DNA of 64,000 nt from an uncultured Flavobacteriaceae bacterium (lineage in GTDB: Bacteria; Bacteroidota; Bacteroidia; Flavobacteriales; Flavobacteriaceae). The position numbers and the translations under genes are program-made. This document shows, one piece after another, positions 10,780 to 34,594 of this stretch (positions are counted from its first letter, which is position 1; each line of letters opens with the position of its first letter). The DNA lies in NCBI GenBank assembly GCA_947494715.1, contig CANLWG010000008.1, positions 186,001 through 250,000 of the forward strand, in the 5' to 3' direction. Below the pieces are notes generated by a model that worked only from the letters and a program-made list of their open reading frames with translations, searched no databases and was not told the DNA's origin.

Positions 10780-10900
10780 CTTTAAAAACTACGATTTCCA
10801 ATCCAAAGTAGTTTATTTTTCGAAGCCTGAAGATATGGATGTTCCTGGTAAATCCAAAGTACAATTGGATTTTAAGGACATGAAGACTGTTTTGGTTTGA
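10776..10900 (+). pseudogene. Possible decayed gene tail
   Basis: One frame from about 10776 to the TGA at 10898-10900 reads like the end of a protein (KVVYFSKPEDMDVPGKSKVQ, then LDFKDMKTVLV). It has no start and no plausible upstream continuation, so it may be the surviving 3' end of a gene interrupted where the first small-protein cassette now begins. The rest of the 370-bp stretch between 10598 and 10970 holds the two palindromes and nothing else that I can see. Confidence 0.25.
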
Positions 10901-10970
10901 AATAGTACACATTTTCAATAATCCAACTACTTTTTTAAGGCAATTTTTGGGATAAAAAGCAAAGAATACC

Positions 10971-11122
10971 GGTAAAGTGATTTTGGGTCTTTGCCCGTTC
11001 ACCGGTGCTATTATGCACTTTATCCCTATTCTTGTCAGATACCGAAAAATAAGGGGTTTTCAGCGAATCGAAACCCGGTAGGATACCCTTCACCGCGTTT
11101 TTATTATATAAAAACGCAAGTC
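10971..11122 (+). promoter_or_regulatory. Conserved 152-nt leader of small-protein cassette, copy 1
   Basis: Nearly identical to the leaders at 13084 and 14581, with the same 152-nt distance from GGTAAAGTG to the ATG. Three hairpins can be drawn: TAAAGTG with CACTTTA (10973-11022); GGGTTT with AAACCC (11054-11076); and a 10-bp stem GCGTTTTTAT/ATAAAAACGC with a TAT loop at 11095-11117, ending 5 nt before the ATG. The 5' arm of the last stem can instead pair over 10 positions (one U-G) with ATGAAAACGC at the start codon, which would hide it. Regulation at translation or mRNA level is inferred from this. Confidence 0.7.
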
Positions 11123-11362
11123 ATGAAAACGCTAATAACTTTAATCTTTGTTCTCTTCATCGGAATCACTGCCCAAGCTCAGGATACTACTTCTGAAGTA
11201 AAAGTTGTGACCATTGAAATGGGGATCGTTACCGAGACCGTTGAAGAAGGTATTTCCTTGGAGAACAAGACTGAGGTTGCCCGTTTGTACAAGCGTTCCA
11301 ATGCCAAGGTAAAGAAAGCGTTGTCATTCACTACTAAAAGAAGCAAGGCTAAATTGGCGTAA
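11123..11362 (+). CDS. Small secreted protein, cassette family copy 1
   Basis: 79 residues. MKTLITLIFVLFIGITAQAQ is a classical signal peptide with cleavage after AQA. The mature 59-60 residues are a short beta-prone acidic half (TTSEVKVVTIEMGIVTETVE) and a basic C-terminal half (VARLYKRSNAKVKKALSFTT followed by KRSKAKLA). No known domain is recognised. It differs from copy 2 by two residues and from copy 3 by four. It lies tail to tail with a sulfatase gene, 42 bp away. The real start is fixed by the signal peptide and the shared leader. Confidence 0.85.
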   Translation: MKTLITLIFVLFIGITAQAQDTTSEVKVVTIEMGIVTETVEEGISLENKTEVARLYKRSNAKVKKALSFTTKRSKAKLA

Positions 11363-11404
11363 TCCTCCCTCTTATTGATAACATTCACGAAGGCGCGGCA
11401 TTAT

Positions 11405-12922
11405 TCACTTAAGGTTTAAAGAAGTATACTGATCGGCCAACTCCTTTACCTTTTCAGGATAAGTCGAAGCCAAGTTATTTAGTTCCGTAGGATCTTCTTT
11501 CATCTGGTACAGTTCCCAATCCCCACCATTGAGCCTTACAATTTTATAATCCCCTTTTCTAAACATCCGGAACTTATCCAGGCCTGAAACAAAAAAATCG
11601 GGTTCCTTTCTTTCTTCGCCCTTAAAAATGGGAAGCAGGGAACTCCCTTGAAGGGGTAGTGTCGCATAGCCGTTTATAGAGTCCGGATAGGAGGTTTTCA
11701 ATACATCCAAAAAAGTGGGGGCCATATCTACCACATGGCCGGGCTGCTGGGTAATAGTTCCTGGGGCTATACGATTGGGCCAATACGCGATAAAAGGGGT
11801 ATGGCTCCCCCCTTCGTGCCCGCATTGTTTGTATTGCCGAAAGGGCGTATTTCCCAAATTAGCCCAAGTGGCCCGTAGGCTCCAATAGGAATCCGCCGGG
11901 CCCGGGGCTACATCTTTTACTTTATTGGTATAAAAAGGACATGAACCATTATCTACGAGAAATAGGATGATGGTATTCTCCAACTTTCCATTTTCCCGAA
12001 GTCTGTCCAGCACCCGACCTATGTTCTGGTCCATTCGGTCTACTATGGCCGCAAACACGGACATTTCCAGATCTAGGGAATCCTTGGCGGAAGCGGATAA
12101 GCCATCCCAAGGATAATACTCCACATATTCCGGTACCAAAGGCTTTCTAAACTGGTTGAGGTTGCCTTCCGGTGGACTTAGCTCGGTATTTTCGGGTACT
12201 ACACCTAATTGTTTCATCTTGGCAAAGCGCTCCCTTCGTAGCTCATCCCATCCCTTTAGATATTTACCCCGGTACTTGGCTATGTCCTCGGGTCTCGCTT
12301 GTAGAGGATAATGTGCCGCGTGATAGGGAAGGTAAAGAAAGAAGGGTTTATCCTTTTCAAAAGTGTCGTCCAACCAGTTTAACGCGTAATCCGTTATAAA
12401 ATCGGTTTTGTACATGGGAGATTGTTCAAATTGAATTTCTTCGGCCTTTAATTCCCTACCATTCAGGTAAAACGGCCGTTCGAAATCCCCGGATGGCGGA
12501 CGAAAATATTCGGTCGTGGCCCAAAAGGTAAATGCATTGTCAAAAACATTTTCGGCCTTGCAATACTCGGGAACCCAAGGGTCAAAGTGCTCCTTTCCGC
12601 TCATGATGTTTTCATATCCCGCTTTTTTGGTGAGGTGTGCCAAGTGAACGGCCCCATTTCCACCATTGTACAATCCGGTCAATAAGGACGAGCGTGTGGG
12701 ATTGCACTTGGCCATATTATAGAAGGTAGTAAAGCGCATTCCACCTTCGGCTAAAAAATCGATATTCGGGGTTTGGATTTCACTTCCGTAACTGCCAATA
12801 TCCGAAAAGCCGATATCATCTGCCATAATTAAAACAATATTGGGTCTTTCTAAAACCTCCTCTTGGGTATCACAGGAGTATAGGGTACCGAGTAACAGGG
12901 CAAATAGCATGTATTTTTTCAT
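11405..12922 (-). CDS. Type I sulfatase, lipoprotein
   Basis: 505 residues from MKKYMLFALLLG, chosen because it begins a lipoprotein signal (TLYSC, Cys17) while the longer form puts eight extra residues ahead of it. The sulfatase fold begins NIVLIMADDIG with metal ligands Asp35-Asp36. The formylglycine motif is CNPTRSSLLTG with Cys73 as the residue to be oxidised. SGKEHFD and the DNGSCPF metal-site segment follow, and the C-terminal small domain is present. The family hydrolyses sulfate esters. In this setting the likely substrates are sulfated algal polysaccharides, acted on in the periplasm or at the surface. A formylglycine-generating enzyme is not in the window. Confidence 0.93.
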   Translation of the reverse strand: MKKYMLFALLLGTLYSCDTQEEVLERPNIVLIMADDIGFSDIGSYGSEIQTPNIDFLAEGGMRFTTFYNMAKCNPTRSSLLTGLYNGGNGAVHLAHLTKKAGYENIMSGKEHFDPWVPEYCKAENVFDNAFTFWATTEYFRPPSGDFERPFYLNGRELKAEEIQFEQSPMYKTDFITDYALNWLDDTFEKDKPFFLYLPYHAAHYPLQARPEDIAKYRGKYLKGWDELRRERFAKMKQLGVVPENTELSPPEGNLNQFRKPLVPEYVEYYPWDGLSASAKDSLDLEMSVFAAIVDRMDQNIGRVLDRLRENGKLENTIILFLVDNGSCPFYTNKVKDVAPGPADSYWSLRATWANLGNTPFRQYKQCGHEGGSHTPFIAYWPNRIAPGTITQQPGHVVDMAPTFLDVLKTSYPDSINGYATLPLQGSSLLPIFKGEERKEPDFFVSGLDKFRMFRKGDYKIVRLNGGDWELYQMKEDPTELNNLASTYPEKVKELADQYTSLNLK

Positions 12923-13083
12923 GGCTTTACATATAAAATTGGGCATAAATCGCTCACCCTATAAAGTTAGTATTATCTCCTTTACCTTTTAAATACACTG
13001 ATTTTATAGTATCCATTCTTAAAATAAACGAATTTTTTTGATGAAATCGAGAGCTTTAATCCCGTTAAAGTACACCTTCTTTC

Positions 13084-13235
13084 GGTAAAGTGATTTTGGG
13101 TCTTCGTCCGTTCACCGATGCAATTGTGCACTTTATCTCTATTCTTGTCAGATACCGAAAAATAAGGGGTTTTCAGCGAATCGAAACCCGGTAGGATACC
13201 CTTCGCCGCGTTTTTATTATATAAAAACGCAAGTC
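13084..13235 (+). promoter_or_regulatory. Conserved leader of small-protein cassette, copy 2
   Basis: Same 152-nt length and almost the same sequence as copies 1 and 3. The start-proximal hairpin is at 13208-13230 and is identical in all three. Changes relative to copy 1 lie mainly in loops, and the H1 stem end changes G-C to G-U. The 160 bp before it, back to the sulfatase start at 12922, shows no gene. Confidence 0.7.
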
Positions 13236-13475
13236 ATGAAAACGCTAATAACTTTAATCTTTGTTCTCTTCATCGGAATCACTGCCCAGGCTCAGGATAC
13301 TACTTCTGAAGTAAAGGTTGTGACCATTGAAATGAGTATCGTTACCGAGACTGTTGAAGAAGGAATTTCCTTGGAGAACAAGACTGAGGTTGCCCGTTTG
13401 TACAAGCGTTCCAATGCCAAGGTAAAAAAAGCGTTGTCTTTTACTACTAAAAGAAGCAGAGCTAAGTTGGCTTAA
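13236..13475 (+). CDS. Small secreted protein, cassette family copy 2
   Basis: 79 residues, differing from copy 1 by Gly to Ser (EMSIVTE) and Lys to Arg in the tail (KRSRAKLA). Same signal peptide and same basic C-terminal block. It ends 20 bp from the stop of the convergent DUF1080 gene. Most nucleotide differences from copy 1 are synonymous, which suggests selection on the protein, recent duplication, or both. Function unknown. Confidence 0.85.
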   Translation: MKTLITLIFVLFIGITAQAQDTTSEVKVVTIEMSIVTETVEEGISLENKTEVARLYKRSNAKVKKALSFTTKRSRAKLA

Positions 13476-13494
13476 GAAATATCCATCAAAAAAA

Positions 13495-14364
13495 CTACCT
13501 GTATTTCTCCGGAACTTCGGTTATCTGTTTTAAGTATAGGTCTTTATAAAACACTTCGGCACCTTCAGATTGTAATATTATCTTTCCCGAATCGAGTTTT
13601 TCCTTGGTCGACATTTTCCTGGAATTGAAAAGTCGCATGACTACTTTACCATTTATAATATGAATGCTGGAATCACCGAGGGCAATCAATTCAACATCAT
13701 TCCACTCACCGTGGGCCTTTTCGGCATCAAAAGCTTTAAAGACTCTTCGCTTCGCCAAGCTATCATGAGTTGCTGTTTTAAGTATATCGGCATAGTAATA
13801 GGAGCGTAAAGGCGCGTTATCCTGATAGATATAATACAAACTGTCCTTGGGAACACTCGGGATATCGATTTCCACATCGCCTACAGGCCAGTAATCGCCC
13901 ATATCACCTTGTTGCACTTGAAGTTCCTGGGAGTCCGTCCAATTATTTACCGCACCGGGCACCCCAAAGCCATGGTAGAGCAAACCACTGTCCCTAGGCC
14001 CTTTTTCCCTTGGGGGATGCATACCTTCGCCCCATTTCGTTTTTAACTTCAAATGATAGTTTTGATAATCCTGTTCCGTATAGATCATACCCCAAGCCAC
14101 GCCGGAAATACGGATGGCATTCCCATCATTGGTATCCACGATGGTAATTACTCCCAAAGGGTCGTTATCTATTCCAAAAGGGGTTAGGGTATTGCCCAGA
14201 CTATCGGTTTGTACTTGATACGGTGTTCCCAGATGACTATGCCAACCGCTCAAGTCCTTGCCATTCCAGAGGGAAATCCATTGTTCAGCGGTTTCGGTAT
14301 TTTTCTTTTCAGATTTGCAGGAGTTGAGGGCAATAATCAGGAATAGGATGAAAAACCTTTTCAT
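13495..14364 (-). CDS. DUF1080 (3-keto-disaccharide hydrolase-type) lipoprotein
   Basis: 289 residues. Lipobox IALNSC at Cys16. The DUF1080 jelly-roll begins WISLWNGKDLSGWHSHLG, with later GVAWGMIYTEQDYQNYHLKL, GPRDSGLLYHGF, DSQELQVQQGDMGDYW and WNDVELIALGD. This domain is known to hydrolyse 3-keto glycosides, and the tandem W/D/E-rich loops are the expected binding face. It is therefore a plausible partner of the Gfo/Idh and TIM-barrel proteins elsewhere in the window, although it is not in their operon. It is flanked by two small-protein cassettes. Exact substrate unknown. Confidence 0.9.
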   Translation of the reverse strand: MKRFFILFLIIALNSCKSEKKNTETAEQWISLWNGKDLSGWHSHLGTPYQVQTDSLGNTLTPFGIDNDPLGVITIVDTNDGNAIRISGVAWGMIYTEQDYQNYHLKLKTKWGEGMHPPREKGPRDSGLLYHGFGVPGAVNNWTDSQELQVQQGDMGDYWPVGDVEIDIPSVPKDSLYYIYQDNAPLRSYYYADILKTATHDSLAKRRVFKAFDAEKAHGEWNDVELIALGDSSIHIINGKVVMRLFNSRKMSTKEKLDSGKIILQSEGAEVFYKDLYLKQITEVPEKYR

Positions 14365-14409
14365 GGTAGGGTTATCTTAGGTTGATGCCTTAAGATAGTG
14401 TAAATTAAT

Positions 14410-14545
14410 TCATTTCTGTAACACACCCTCCAAAACTGTCCAAACGTTATTGGCCACGATTTTTTGACCTTCAATAGTGGGATGTATTCCGTCCTCTTGG
14501 TTCAGTTCAGGATTGCCTGCTACTCCTTCCACAAAAACAGAATTA
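14410..14545 (-). pseudogene. Remnant of a GDSL esterase gene 3' end
   Basis: About 45 codons ending in TGA at 14410-14412 encode VEGVAGNPELNQEDGIHPTI and then EGQKIVANNVWTVLEGVLQK. This matches the last 45 residues of the intact esterase at 14981-15673 (EGVAGNPKLNQEDGIHPTVE). Homology stops near 14545, about 35 bp before the leader of cassette copy 3 begins. It has no start, lacks the catalytic Ser block and keeps only the Asp-His block. It looks like the leftover of a duplicated esterase-cassette unit. Confidence 0.8.
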
Positions 14546-14580
14546 GGGGGTCGGATGCTCGATAAAGTGCATATCCTTTC

Positions 14581-14732
14581 GGTAAAGTGATTTTGGGTCT
14601 TCGTCCGTTCGCCGATGCAATTGTGCACTTTATCCCTATTCTTGTCAGATGCCGAAAAATAAGGGGTTTTCAGCGAATCAAAACCCGGTAGGATACCCTT
14701 CGCCGCGTTTTTATTATATAAAAACGCAAGTC
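14581..14732 (+). promoter_or_regulatory. Conserved leader of small-protein cassette, copy 3
   Basis: 152 nt to the ATG as in copies 1 and 2. The GGGTTTT/AAAACCC hairpin is one pair longer than in the other copies because of a G to A change. The start-proximal hairpin lies at 14705-14727 and is unchanged. Confidence 0.7.
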
Positions 14733-14972
14733 ATGAAAACGCTAATAACTTTAATCTTTGTTCTCTTCATCGGAATCACTGCCCAGGCTCAGGATACTAC
14801 TTCTGAAGTAAAGGTTGTGACCATTGAAATGGGTATCGTTACCGAGAGCGTTGAAGAAGGAATTTCCTTGGAGAACAAGACTGAGGTTGCTCGTTTGTAC
14901 AAGCGTTCCAATGCCAAGGTAAAGAAAGCCTTGTCATTTACAACGAAAAGGAACAAATCCAAGATGGCTTAA
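14733..14972 (+). CDS. Small secreted protein, cassette family copy 3
   Basis: 79 residues. Differs from copy 1 in four positions (TESVEEG, and tail KRNKSKMA). Signal peptide identical. It ends 8 bp from the stop of the convergent GDSL esterase. The variable positions cluster in the C-terminal tail and one middle residue, while the signal peptide and VARLYKRSNAKVKKALSF block are fixed. Confidence 0.85.
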   Translation: MKTLITLIFVLFIGITAQAQDTTSEVKVVTIEMGIVTESVEEGISLENKTEVARLYKRSNAKVKKALSFTTKRNKSKMA

Positions 14973-14980
14973 GAAATATT

Positions 14981-15673
14981 TTATTCTAGAACAACATCTT
15001 CCAAAACGGCCCATACATTATTTGCCACGATTTTTTGACCTTCAACAGTGGGGTGTATGCCGTCCTCTTGGTTCAATTTAGGGTTGCCCGCTACTCCTTC
15101 CAGCAAAAAAGGAATCAAGGGCAAACTATTCTTTTCTGCCAGATCTGGGAATATTTTACGGAATTCTGTGGTATAGGCCTGTCCCATATTGGGCGGTATC
15201 TGCATACCGGCAAGAATAATTTGAGTGTCCGGATTTTTTTGCCGTACGGCCTCGATAATGGCCTGTAAGTTGGTTCGGGTCTCATCCAAAGGAATTCCTC
15301 GTAGTCCATCATTGGCCCCTAGTTCCAGTATAAAAATATCAGCCTTTTGGTTCAATACCCAGTCCAATCGGTTTCTTCCACTCGCCGTGGTCTCCCCGCT
15401 AAGTCCGGAATTAATGACAGTATAATTCATATCCAAGGAATCCAATGTATCCTGAATAACAGCCGGGAATGCTTCCTGGGGATCTAGGCCTAATCCGGCG
15501 GTAAGGCTATCGCCAAAGAAAATAATGGTTTTGCTGTCCTTCTTGCTTGTCTCCTCTGTTGGAGAATCTACCGATTCGTTAGAGGTATCATCGGGTTTCT
15601 GTGTGGATTTGCCACCGCAGGACAGCAAAAGGAACAGGGAGAAAAAATAACAAAGTTTTAAGAGTGTCTGCAT
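14981..15673 (-). CDS. tesA: GDSL/SGNH arylesterase (TesA-like), lipoprotein
   Basis: 230 residues. Lipobox LLLLSC (Cys19). The SGNH blocks are all present: block I IIFFGDSLTAG with Ser56, block II NSGLSGETTASG, block III ELGANDGLRG with Asn, and block V DGIHPTVEGQ with the catalytic Asp and His. This is the TesA / arylesterase family, and it lies divergent to an ABC ATPase-permease pair as tesA lies beside ybbA-ybbP in Escherichia coli. The lipoprotein signal and a long Ser/Thr/Glu linker place it in the periplasm. A remnant of its 3' end is at 14410-14545. Confidence 0.9.
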   Translation of the reverse strand: MQTLLKLCYFFSLFLLLSCGGKSTQKPDDTSNESVDSPTEETSKKDSKTIIFFGDSLTAGLGLDPQEAFPAVIQDTLDSLDMNYTVINSGLSGETTASGRNRLDWVLNQKADIFILELGANDGLRGIPLDETRTNLQAIIEAVRQKNPDTQIILAGMQIPPNMGQAYTTEFRKIFPDLAEKNSLPLIPFLLEGVAGNPKLNQEDGIHPTVEGQKIVANNVWAVLEDVVLE

Positions 15674-28210: not shown

Positions 28211-28340
28211 CCAAGGTGTAATCTGTTTTCAAAACTAAATGTTTTAGAAGCAAAAGGCATAATAACCTGTTAAACGTACAGGGTATACGCTATGATTTCT
28301 TAGAGATAGATTTCCAAACCACCGATAAAAGCCCCATTTT

Positions 28341-28497
28341 TTCGGTGAGTTGAATTGGGATAAAATTCCGTTTGCCGGAGCTTTTTTACACTTCATCCAT
28401 ATTTTTTACACTGACCGAAAATAGGTGTCGTTCAGCGACTTACAAGGCATCCCAGCCTGTAATCGGGGTTATCTTTAAGTAACCCAATCGCACTGAC
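28341..28497 (+). promoter_or_regulatory. Divergent leader of small-protein cassette, copy 4
   Basis: 157 nt from the TTCGGT block to the ATG, against 155 in copy 2. Blocks in common order include TTCGGT, CACTTYATC, the ACCGAAAA segment and TTCAGCGA. Two hairpins fall where copies 1-3 have theirs: TTACAaGGC/GCCTGTAA near 28439-28462 and GGGTTA/TAACCC at 28466-28485, 12 nt before the ATG. So length and structure are kept while sequence has changed. Confidence 0.6.
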
Positions 28498-28755
28498 ATG
28501 AAATCTATTTTAACCTTGCTTATCGTCCTTCTCTTCGGAGCTATGGCATTGGCACAAAACACACAAACCGATGTTAAAGTGGAGTCTATTAAAATGGGTG
28601 TTGTTCTGGATGGTAGCCTTACTATTTCTATCGCTACTTTCCAAAGTTCGCAACCCGTCCAAGACCAAGTCGCGCGTTTATACAAGTTCAGAAATGCAAG
28701 AGTGAAGAAAGCCCTGTCTTTCCGCACCAAAAAAACGAAAGCCAAATTAGCCTAA
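28498..28755 (+). CDS. Small secreted protein, cassette family copy 4 (divergent)
   Basis: 85 residues. MKSILTLLIVLLFGAMALAQ is a signal peptide. The middle is different and longer than in copies 1-3 (IKMGVVLDGSLTISIATFQS), but the C-terminal block is clearly homologous: VARLYKFRNARVKKALSFRT and KKTKAKLA. The conserved family part is therefore V-A-R-L-Y-K-x2-N-A-x-V-K-K-A-L-S-F-x-T-K. Unlike the other three it is not convergent with an enzyme gene at once; a 36-residue gene follows. Confidence 0.8.
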   Translation: MKSILTLLIVLLFGAMALAQNTQTDVKVESIKMGVVLDGSLTISIATFQSSQPVQDQVARLYKFRNARVKKALSFRTKKTKAKLA

Positions 28756-33373: not shown

Positions 33374-34594
33374 TCAAGCCAGGGATGGCACCTTTTGATG
33401 GATTTCCCTAAACTTCACAATGTAATAGGTGCCTTTTTTGGTAACATCTCGAATTATGGAACCTCTTAACTGTCGGGCCAGATTGTGGATAAGTTTTAGC
33501 CCCAAGGATTTAGTAGTCTTATGGTTCATAGTTTCCGGAAATCCGATACCGTTATCACCGATGTTCAACTGATATTCACCGTCATCACCTCTTCGTAATT
33601 TAATAAAGATTTCCCCTTTGGAATCATCCACAATACCATATTTAAGCGCATTCGTTACGGCTTCATTGATCAGTAGGCCCAAGGGAATGGCGGTGTCAAT
33701 ATTTAGTTTAATATCCGGAATGTCAATATCTAGGGTGATGTTACTACTGGTTCCCTTAATGGAACGCACCAGATACTCCGCCAGTTCCTCTACATAGGAT
33801 TTGTATTCTATTTTGGAAAGATCTTCGCGCATATATAACATCTCATGCACCATGGCCATAGAGATAACGCGATTTTGACTGTTTTTCAATAAATCCTTGG
33901 TCTGTTTGTCATCAATATTCCGTGATTGAAGACTCAAAAGACTGGATACCGTTTGCAAGTTGTTTTTTACCCGGTGGTGTACTTCCTTGAGTAAGGTTTC
34001 CTTTTCCTTTATTTTTTCCTCCACCTCGCTTTTTGTCTTGTAGAGCTTGTGATGGACACGCAATAGGTTCTTTCCGAATACCCCGCCTAGGAGATATACG
34101 GAAAATAACACGCTCAACAAGGCGAATAAATTCTTGGAACCTTCCGGTACTGCATTGGTCGTGAAACTAAAATCTGCAATACTTTGTGCATAAATAAGGA
34201 GGATAATCAATGAAATAAGATATAGGTACAACGCACCATAAGACTTTGTACTTACATACCCGGCCACAACGACCAATGCCAATACGAATATAAACGGACT
34301 GTTGATGCCTCCACTATATAAAGTTATAATAGTTGCCCCCATCAGTGCCATGATAGAAACGATATTATAGGCAAGTGCCAGGTTTTTATGATATTTATAG
34401 AGAAAGGTGTTAAGTAAGTTGAGCACACCGAATGCCAGAAAAACGTAGGGAATAACCTTGGTAATGTTGAGCGCAAACAAGCAGAGCAAACAGAAGACCA
34501 AGGAACAAACGGAAGTGAAGTAATTTACCTTGAGTACCAATTTGGCCTTGTCCCGTAATCTTTCTTCCATTCCCTTGTTGTACTGCATATCCAA
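33374..34594 (-). CDS. Sensor histidine kinase, HisKA_2 type, with six-helix N-terminus
   Basis: 406 residues. The N-terminal 170 residues contain about six hydrophobic helices, with no extracellular sensor domain larger than a loop. A coiled linker (LYKTKSEVEEKIKEKETLLK) leads to the HisKA_2 phosphoacceptor LKEVHHRVKNNLQTVSSLLS. The HATPase has the N-box INEAVTNALKYG and the G-box IGDNGIGFPE, with GLKLIHNLARQLRG. No response regulator is next to it. Kinases of this type often act on a stand-alone REC or RNA-binding ANTAR partner. The signal is unknown. Confidence 0.9.
   Translation of the reverse strand: MDMQYNKGMEERLRDKAKLVLKVNYFTSVCSLVFCLLCLFALNITKVIPYVFLAFGVLNLLNTFLYKYHKNLALAYNIVSIMALMGATIITLYSGGINSPFIFVLALVVVAGYVSTKSYGALYLYLISLIILLIYAQSIADFSFTTNAVPEGSKNLFALLSVLFSVYLLGGVFGKNLLRVHHKLYKTKSEVEEKIKEKETLLKEVHHRVKNNLQTVSSLLSLQSRNIDDKQTKDLLKNSQNRVISMAMVHEMLYMREDLSKIEYKSYVEELAEYLVRSIKGTSSNITLDIDIPDIKLNIDTAIPLGLLINEAVTNALKYGIVDDSKGEIFIKLRRGDDGEYQLNIGDNGIGFPETMNHKTTKSLGLKLIHNLARQLRGSIIRDVTKKGTYYIVKFREIHQKVPSLA

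Follow-up and report, generated by a model that had tools for sequence, protein, structure and literature searches.

Excerpts of the literature describe LytTR regulators as binding two repeats of 9-11 nt with spacers of 11-13 nt, without a consensus common to their sites (PMC4847170), and often just 5' of a promoter (PMC6193735); the core site of AlgR is CCGTTCGTC (PMC4064291), and in Streptococcus mutans bacteriocin genes are controlled via LytTR direct repeats (PMC6193735). Here, we analysed a 64,000-nt stretch of DNA (hereafter the window) from an uncultured Flavobacteriaceae bacterium (assembly GCA_947494715.1, contig CANLWG010000008.1, positions 186,001 to 250,000 of the forward strand), which carries four copies, c1 to c4, of a gene for a small protein, each behind a leader of paired boxes. 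Like the promoters of AlgR, YpdB and HdrR/BrsR as portrayed in these excerpts (PMC4847170, PMC6193735, PMC4064291), the leader has paired repeats of 9-11 nt about two helical turns apart near a candidate promoter, and some of its boxes may resemble CCGTTCGTC. Unlike them, it comprises three pairs in a fixed array, one of them inverted, is nearly private to one gene family and has no cognate regulator alongside. New here are the near one-to-one link between leader and gene, the restriction of the family to 49 of 299 Flavobacteriaceae genomes, and the relatives borne by phages.

Judged by their sequences, c1-c4 belong to an undescribed family of small proteins. All four are encoded on the forward strand of the window: the class A members c1 (11123..11362), c2 (13236..13475) and c3 (14733..14972) have 79 residues each, and the class B member c4 (28498..28755) has 85 and is 51% identical to c2 at the protein level. 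An earlier note on this DNA had reported copies at these four start positions, the last a divergent one, each built of a signal peptide, an acidic part and a basic block. The copies are real, their coordinates and lengths hold, and the layout is borne out, as in c1 with its signal-peptide-like start (judged by eye, here as throughout), acidic middle and basic C-terminal block. The statement that the close copies differ in 2-4 of 79 residues fits c1-c2 (2) and c1-c3 (4), as counted from the translations, but omits c2-c3, which differ at 6 (92% identity). When the whole source genome (5.97 Mb, 72 contigs) was queried with c2, the four copies were the sole convincing matches, all of them in the window, and the next match had an E value of 0.23.

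A total of 179 open reading frames (ORFs) were gathered from loci of the family, some genes being counted twice; removal of two truncated ones (<70 aa) left 177, and removal of near-duplicates left 91 for alignment. These members have 72-95 aa, and nearly all begin with MK and a hydrophobic, signal-peptide-like segment. A variable middle with a median net charge of -3 precedes the conserved last 29 residues, whose median charge is +9, and the part after residue 20 has a median isoelectric point (pI) of 9.9. M1, L67 and F69 are invariant across the alignment, and the C-terminal residue is A in 83 of the 91 members, mostly as KMA (41) or KLA (32). Differences per codon position amounted to 0.27/0.22/0.54 in the last 28 codons and, in the middle region of those 29 members that have 79 codons, to 0.40/0.36/0.61. 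Its recurrence in 49 of 299 genomes, together with variation that falls mainly on the third positions of the last 28 codons, shows that the family is more than a product of chance. More divergent family-like members of the YRS/YRR...VKxxLFF type were seen at loci L359 (342-590, reverse strand) and L050 (1249-1497), which hint at a third class.

The earlier note had no described function to offer for the family, and the database searches reached no named family. All hits listed for c1-c4 in Pfam and NCBIfam (e.g., GLV1-2, DUF3316, GLPGLI, RclB) were below the cut-offs, and no Pfam family matched more than four of the 91 members at E <= 0.01 (best E 5.1e-4). The PADLOC models of anti-phage defence returned no family for c2, c4 or gene 7 of phage Molly (see below) at E <= 1, and the best E value against solved structures was 0.26. 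In a literature search, none of the listed titles and abstract openings described this family, which has no name to search by. The AlphaFold2 model, built from the 91-row alignment with a mean predicted local distance difference test score (pLDDT) of 65.7, predicts a helix at residues 2-20 and short helices at 49-56 and 58-67.

The distribution was determined in 299 genomes of the Flavobacteriaceae, the source genome among them. Hits at E <= 0.01 were obtained in 55, six of which were weak (best E 6.6e-4 to 0.009). These six were dropped because a profile search gave partial matches at best (best E 3.9e-5, positions 1-42) and the leader was missing from five of them and scored no better than noise (9e-4) in the other; they look like signal-peptide similarity. 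The remaining 49 carriers include Ulvibacterium, Zobellia, Maribacter, Eudoraea, Muriicola and Lentiprolixibacter. Matches per carrier, with gene pieces split across contigs each counted as a match, numbered one in 4 genomes, two in 18, three in 13, four in 6, five in 6, and seven and eight in one genome each. The block is found in genomes well outside the window's four loci, to which the earlier note had considered that it might be confined. At class level, hits at E <= 1e-3 were obtained in 24 of 395 genomes and were full-length only in the source genome and two other known carriers; plasmids gave no match at E <= 0.01, and the sole match among viral contigs was the Molly contig.

The 49 carriers are exactly the 49 genomes that hold a copy, at least 78% identical, of one LytTR regulator. 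Among the genomes marked by this regulator, then, none is seen to have lost the family. In sister lineages, represented by nine genomes with a 56-75% identical orthologue of that regulator and by the six weak-hit genomes, only partial profile hits were found, mostly to the signal segment. The simplest reading, made without a species tree, is a single origin in one clade with no loss within the sample.

We built a sequence-only leader model, R1, of 120 positions from 47 leaders. In the source genome it found four strong sites, each before one of c1-c4, and its next two hits were such sites read on the other strand. The box arrays, all on the forward strand, lie at 10950..11066 before c1 (R1 match 10950-11065, E 3.7e-23), 13060..13178 before c2 (E 1.9e-24), 14559..14675 before c3 (E 1.3e-22) and 28321..28437 before c4 (E 1.6e-19), and the divergent fourth copy noted earlier therefore has the leader as well. 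The genome's R1 hits, weak ones included, numbered 24; in the 20 inspected for ORFs of at least 60 aa starting with ATG immediately downstream, there was no common kind of gene beyond the known copies.

Under strict filters, with which weak matches are lost, the search was extended to 48 further carriers and the six weak-hit genomes, 54 in all. R1 found 138 sites at E <= 1e-3, of which 118 sit 56-80 nt 5' of a family gene; below 1e-6 this holds for 114 of 120. The pairing was made with 138 family hits, which leave aside the window's own four, eight weaker ones among those listed and any beyond the list. Of the six strong sites without a partner, four are at contig ends, one of them (L353) followed by the start of a family gene that is cut off by the contig end, one (L350) precedes an apparently decayed family gene and one (L351) has no visible family gene. 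Ten of the 14 unmatched weaker sites were inspected, and one, at L359, lies before the divergent family member mentioned above. The leader is nearly private to the family, in a near one-to-one link of leader and gene. Two others of the unmatched weaker sites, in two genomes, hint at a wider regulon: those at L362 (E 2.5e-4) and L364 (E 8.4e-4) precede PorP/SprF genes (assigned by Pfam; type IX secretion) by 110 and 103 nt.

Column conservation over 75 aligned leaders revealed about six half-sites, with a conserved C at about -173 and -153 (inverted) and at -120, -99, -80 and -59 (forward). Within the three pairs, the conserved C residues are 20, 21 and 21 bp apart. In the c1 array the inverted boxes correspond to ~10950-10961 and ~10970-10980 and the forward boxes to ~10996-11005, ~11016-11025, ~11040-11046 and ~11059-11066. 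Further downstream, the weakly conserved columns -39 to -32 contain a candidate -7 promoter element (11084..11091 on the forward strand before c1), as proposed by comparison with the TAnnTTTG consensus that an excerpt of PMC9723704 gives for Flavobacterium psychrophilum, together with a median 5' untranslated region of 24 nt. With a -7-like stretch in this place, transcription would start close to a hairpin at -28 to -6.

This hairpin directly precedes the start codon. It is a palindrome at 11095..11117 before c1, 13208..13230 before c2 and 14705..14727 before c3, and before c4 the class B form GGGTTA/TAACCC lies at 28466..28485, all on the forward strand. Its stem was tested by comparing the leaders' own arm pairs with arms re-paired between leaders. 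The mean score in 95 leaders was 15.9 for own arms and 12.6 after re-pairing, and none of 200 re-pairings reached the observed value; in 34 dissimilar leaders the scores were 13.4 and 11.2, with none of 500. A second apparent hairpin further upstream was not supported, as 36 of 200 re-pairings reached its score. RNAalifold returned a consensus structure of 0 pairs for the 75 leaders, and Rfam had nothing at gathering score in the window, with only two sub-threshold hits in the range 10900-11200. The leader is mostly a DNA element, not a structured RNA. A structured RNA, as implied by the covariance model of the leader that the earlier note had suggested, does not stand for the leader as a whole: the conserved part consists of phased boxes, and only the start-proximal hairpin is supported. 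A structured RNA leader was rejected on the results of RNAalifold, Rfam and the re-pairing test, this hairpin excepted. A regulatory RNA such as a riboswitch or thermometer, to which a hairpin directly 5' of the ATG would be suited, is very unlikely in view of these results and of the box region, a number of whose R1 sites are matched on both strands.

The box pairs fit the two-repeat spacing of LytTR sites (~20-24 bp from start to start), and on this ground we infer that the controlling regulator would be of LytTR type. With up to two mismatches, CCGTTCGTC occurs at -140 to -110 in 53 of 149 leaders, a count made without a chance control. The source genome has 34 LytTR matches, and none of the 32 listed falls in the window. 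In a co-occurrence comparison of at least 108 LytTR loci from 12 genomes, six with the family and six without, two orthologue groups stood out: each of the six carriers had them as reciprocal best hits, and the six non-carriers had only distant counterparts. The first group is the regulator described above: at >=78% identity it coincides exactly with the 49 carriers, and nine genomes without a family member have it at 56-75%. The second separates less cleanly, being present in 48 of 49 carriers at 49-100% identity (none listed for G135), with non-carriers reaching 50%. Because the first group also occurs in nine non-carriers and the second separates less cleanly, the co-occurrence marks only the clade, and the choice of a regulator by this route was rejected. 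The regulator of the first group, highly conserved, adjoins a menA-like gene (named by eye) at L346 (3950-4702).

The copies in the window differ from a mobile element, as the earlier note had argued in describing a repeat of gene plus leader. The unit shared by c1-c3 (repeat D1) is about 300 nt long, leader included, and matches the reference copy at 92% and 96%. The 200-400 nt upstream and the sequence just downstream are only 23-30% identical, c1-c3 have no shared flanks, and no transposase was found among nine ORFs scanned in the window. The constant distance between leader and start codon described for the close copies was also recovered: a TAAAGTG block (repeat D3) begins 150 nt 5' of the ATG in c1, c2 and c3, equivalent to the 152 nt reported. 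Among and beside the copies, on the opposite strand, are unrelated genes for a sulfatase, a 3-keto-disaccharide hydrolase and a GDSL esterase. A 138-nt stretch at 14403..14540 (repeat D2, no strand assigned), which the earlier note does not mention, partially repeats the terminal part of the GDSL esterase region (81% identity to 14974-15111) and is probably a scar of the duplication that made c3.

In Ulvibacterium marinum, three copies occupy the same syntenic places, in surroundings that are 83-88% identical. A spreading element or an assembly artefact without function would account for near-identical copies and for contigs of other assemblies that end at copies. It is scarcely credible in view of these shared positions in two species, the codon-position bias and the presence of the family in every one of the 49 genomes with the LytTR orthologue at >=78%. 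Coding identity is mostly higher within a species (0.92-0.95) than between positional orthologues (0.89-0.91), which suggests that the copies are kept alike by gene conversion. Against this excess stand the cross-species pair w2-u1, which at 0.928 is as similar as some pairs within a species, the leaders, which alone give little contrast, and the support of the tree split, 81/96; gene conversion is therefore only moderately supported.

Relatives of the family were found in flavobacterial phages. When 50,697 phage records were queried with c2, matches at E <= 0.01 were confined to the Maribacter phages Molly and Colly (8 records, two of them RefSeq duplicates), with 41% identity over 92% of the query. 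Their homologue has 65 residues and, like the bacterial members, a signal-peptide-like start and a similar C-terminal block. Two perfect 10-nt repeats CCGTTTAACG precede the Molly homologue (Molly_1 gene 7, QQO97555, annotated hypothetical); they are 21 bp apart, with 11 nt between them, and comply with the LytTR spacing rule. With up to 3 mismatches allowed, three CCGTTTAACG-type pairs occur in the 124.7 kb Molly genome; the other strand has none, and a control pattern gave no hit. The three pairs lie 77 nt before gene 7, 77 nt before gene 10 (annotated as a matrixin metalloprotease) and 84 nt before gene 192, and have a [TC]ACTTTG element and downstream sequence in common (L167, L172). Only the box core and spacing are common to the Molly and the bacterial leaders, since the full leader model reached E 0.16. 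In the source genome, phage-type box pairs gave 5 hits compared to 9 for the control pattern and are therefore attributed to chance. No LytTR protein is annotated in the viewed stretches of the Molly genome (all but about 106-117 kb), where most genes are "hypothetical" and no domain scan was made. The excerpted text of the phage paper PMC8776804 mentions the metallopeptidase of Molly and does not mention gene 7.

A search of all phages with the block consensus (E 0.5) and its follow-up led to a 50-residue protein encoded in 7 records (two of them RefSeq duplicates) of the Cellulophaga phages Calle, phi38:1 and phi40:1. This lysine-rich protein, represented by gp072 of phi38:1 (AGO48102, annotated hypothetical), ends in a similar block with a KLA terminus and is 64-67% identical over 27-28 of 29 query residues. 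It has no signal peptide and, like the Molly protein, is shorter than the bacterial members. The PHROGs family phrog_26162 (59 aa, unknown function) weakly matches c2 and the Molly and Calle/phi38:1 proteins (E 0.0009 to 0.025); these are weak matches only and membership is not claimed. In Calle_1 (L366) and phi38:1 (L367), the gene runs in the opposite direction to the closest annotated genes and adjoins a tRNA array.

The family itself, its distribution in the sample, the linkage of leader and gene, the phasing of the boxes, the hairpin, the syntenic copies and the phage relatives were computed directly. The most economical reading of them is an exported envelope protein with the C-terminal block as its working part, made on demand from co-regulated copies. 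In full, we tentatively favour an activator-controlled exported envelope protein of one clade that was taken up by phages, an account to which we give somewhat less than an even chance. The products would be small Sec-exported proteins of the cell envelope. Each copy would be transcribed from its own activator-dependent promoter, in which the three half-site pairs, one inverted and two direct, may serve dimers of a LytTR-type response regulator; the box pairs would be followed by the -7-like element and then by the short hairpin at or near the predicted 5' end of the mRNA. Activation of the regulator by a probably envelope-related signal would switch all copies on together, and several near-identical copies, kept alike by gene conversion, would raise the dosage. 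After cleavage of the signal peptide, the variable middle would probably be a flexible spacer and the basic block the working part, which would dock on an acidic component of the envelope or on a partner. Flavobacterial phages would have taken up the block, one group of them behind a similar box pair, presumably with some benefit in the infected cell. As the family is kept by relatives on one branch and carried by few phages, it probably matters at the envelope and perhaps in infection; that it acts in infection is our hypothesis from its presence in phages.

A number of observations weigh against this account. The AlphaFold2 model is of low confidence (pLDDT 65.7), and amphipathicity of the C-terminal segment is inconsistent, with one of four sequences beating shuffles at 5%. 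On the side of the promoter, 20 of the 138 family hits lack a leader hit (three of the 20 are at contig starts), and the candidate -7 element is weakly conserved. The bacterial box pairs are at the short end of known LytTR spacing, CCGTTCGTC is exact in one of 149 leaders, and LytTR sites, as excerpted from PMC4847170, share no consensus. No single regulator was picked out among the 34 LytTR matches of the source genome, and the co-occurrence is confounded by shared ancestry, as nine genomes without the family have the orthologue at 56-75%. With regard to the phages, the region upstream of the Molly gene fails the whole-leader model, no convincing leader was found 5' of the Cellulophaga phage gene (best E 0.62), and the signal-less Cellulophaga form argues against a role at the envelope only.

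Other functions can be read into the same data. In a phage-host contest, hosts would induce their copies via the LytTR-type promoter on surface damage, and phage copies, in one group behind paired activator sites of the same kind, would alter the envelope (e.g., by blocking superinfection) or neutralise the host factor; we regard this as unlikely. The antimicrobial, signal-peptide and intracellular-target readings are possible and rank below that of an envelope protein. A prepro-antimicrobial peptide or bacteriocin, whose acidic part masks a cationic C-terminal peptide that is released against competitors, would suit the charge pattern of the 91 members (middle -3, last 29 residues +9, pI 9.9 after residue 20) and the control of S. 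mutans bacteriocin genes by LytTR direct repeats (PMC6193735). The block is conserved across 49 carrier genomes and only weakly amphipathic, and across 75 sources no recurrent immunity or export gene was seen by eye among neighbouring ORFs of 100 aa or more; we therefore consider such a peptide doubtful. Arms-race peptides are expected to be less conserved than this block. Class II bacteriocins under LytTR control are likewise small exported cationic products with LytTR-type promoters, but they have double-glycine leaders and immunity genes, whereas this family has a Sec-type start and clade-wide conservation, with no immunity gene among the neighbours just described.

The signal-less, lysine-rich protein of Calle, phi38:1 and phi40:1 would be explained if the basic block acted inside the cell, for instance on nucleic acid or a conserved host protein, with the phage form as the original activity and the secreted form as an exported variant. 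Against this, nearly all bacterial members and the Molly form start like signal peptides, and the Cellulophaga match alone reached only E 0.5 in the all-phage search, which leaves this option as doubtful as the antimicrobial one. Less probable still is a secreted signal-peptide precursor that feeds back on its own promoter via a sensor kinase and a LytTR regulator. The multiple copies, nearly identical in gene and promoter alike, would be in keeping with it, as would the relatives of a HisKA_2 histidine kinase (33374-34594 in the window) that lie near family members in 13 of 75 sources, the window included. However, the kinase belongs to a wider syntenic block with no response regulator seen alongside, and the middle part, in length as in sequence, is variable.

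Taken as an exported envelope protein, a clade-wide gene family with a nearly private multi-box promoter and phage relatives could be an entry to an unstudied envelope response in marine flavobacteria. The leader model and the box spacing offer a means to find the controlling regulator among dozens of LytTR proteins, and cultured host-phage pairs exist in Maribacter forsetii with Molly/Colly and Cellulophaga baltica with phi38:1. At the Zobellia loci L038-L040, L042 and L047, two or three relatives of the HisKA_2 kinase are encoded downstream of the last family member.

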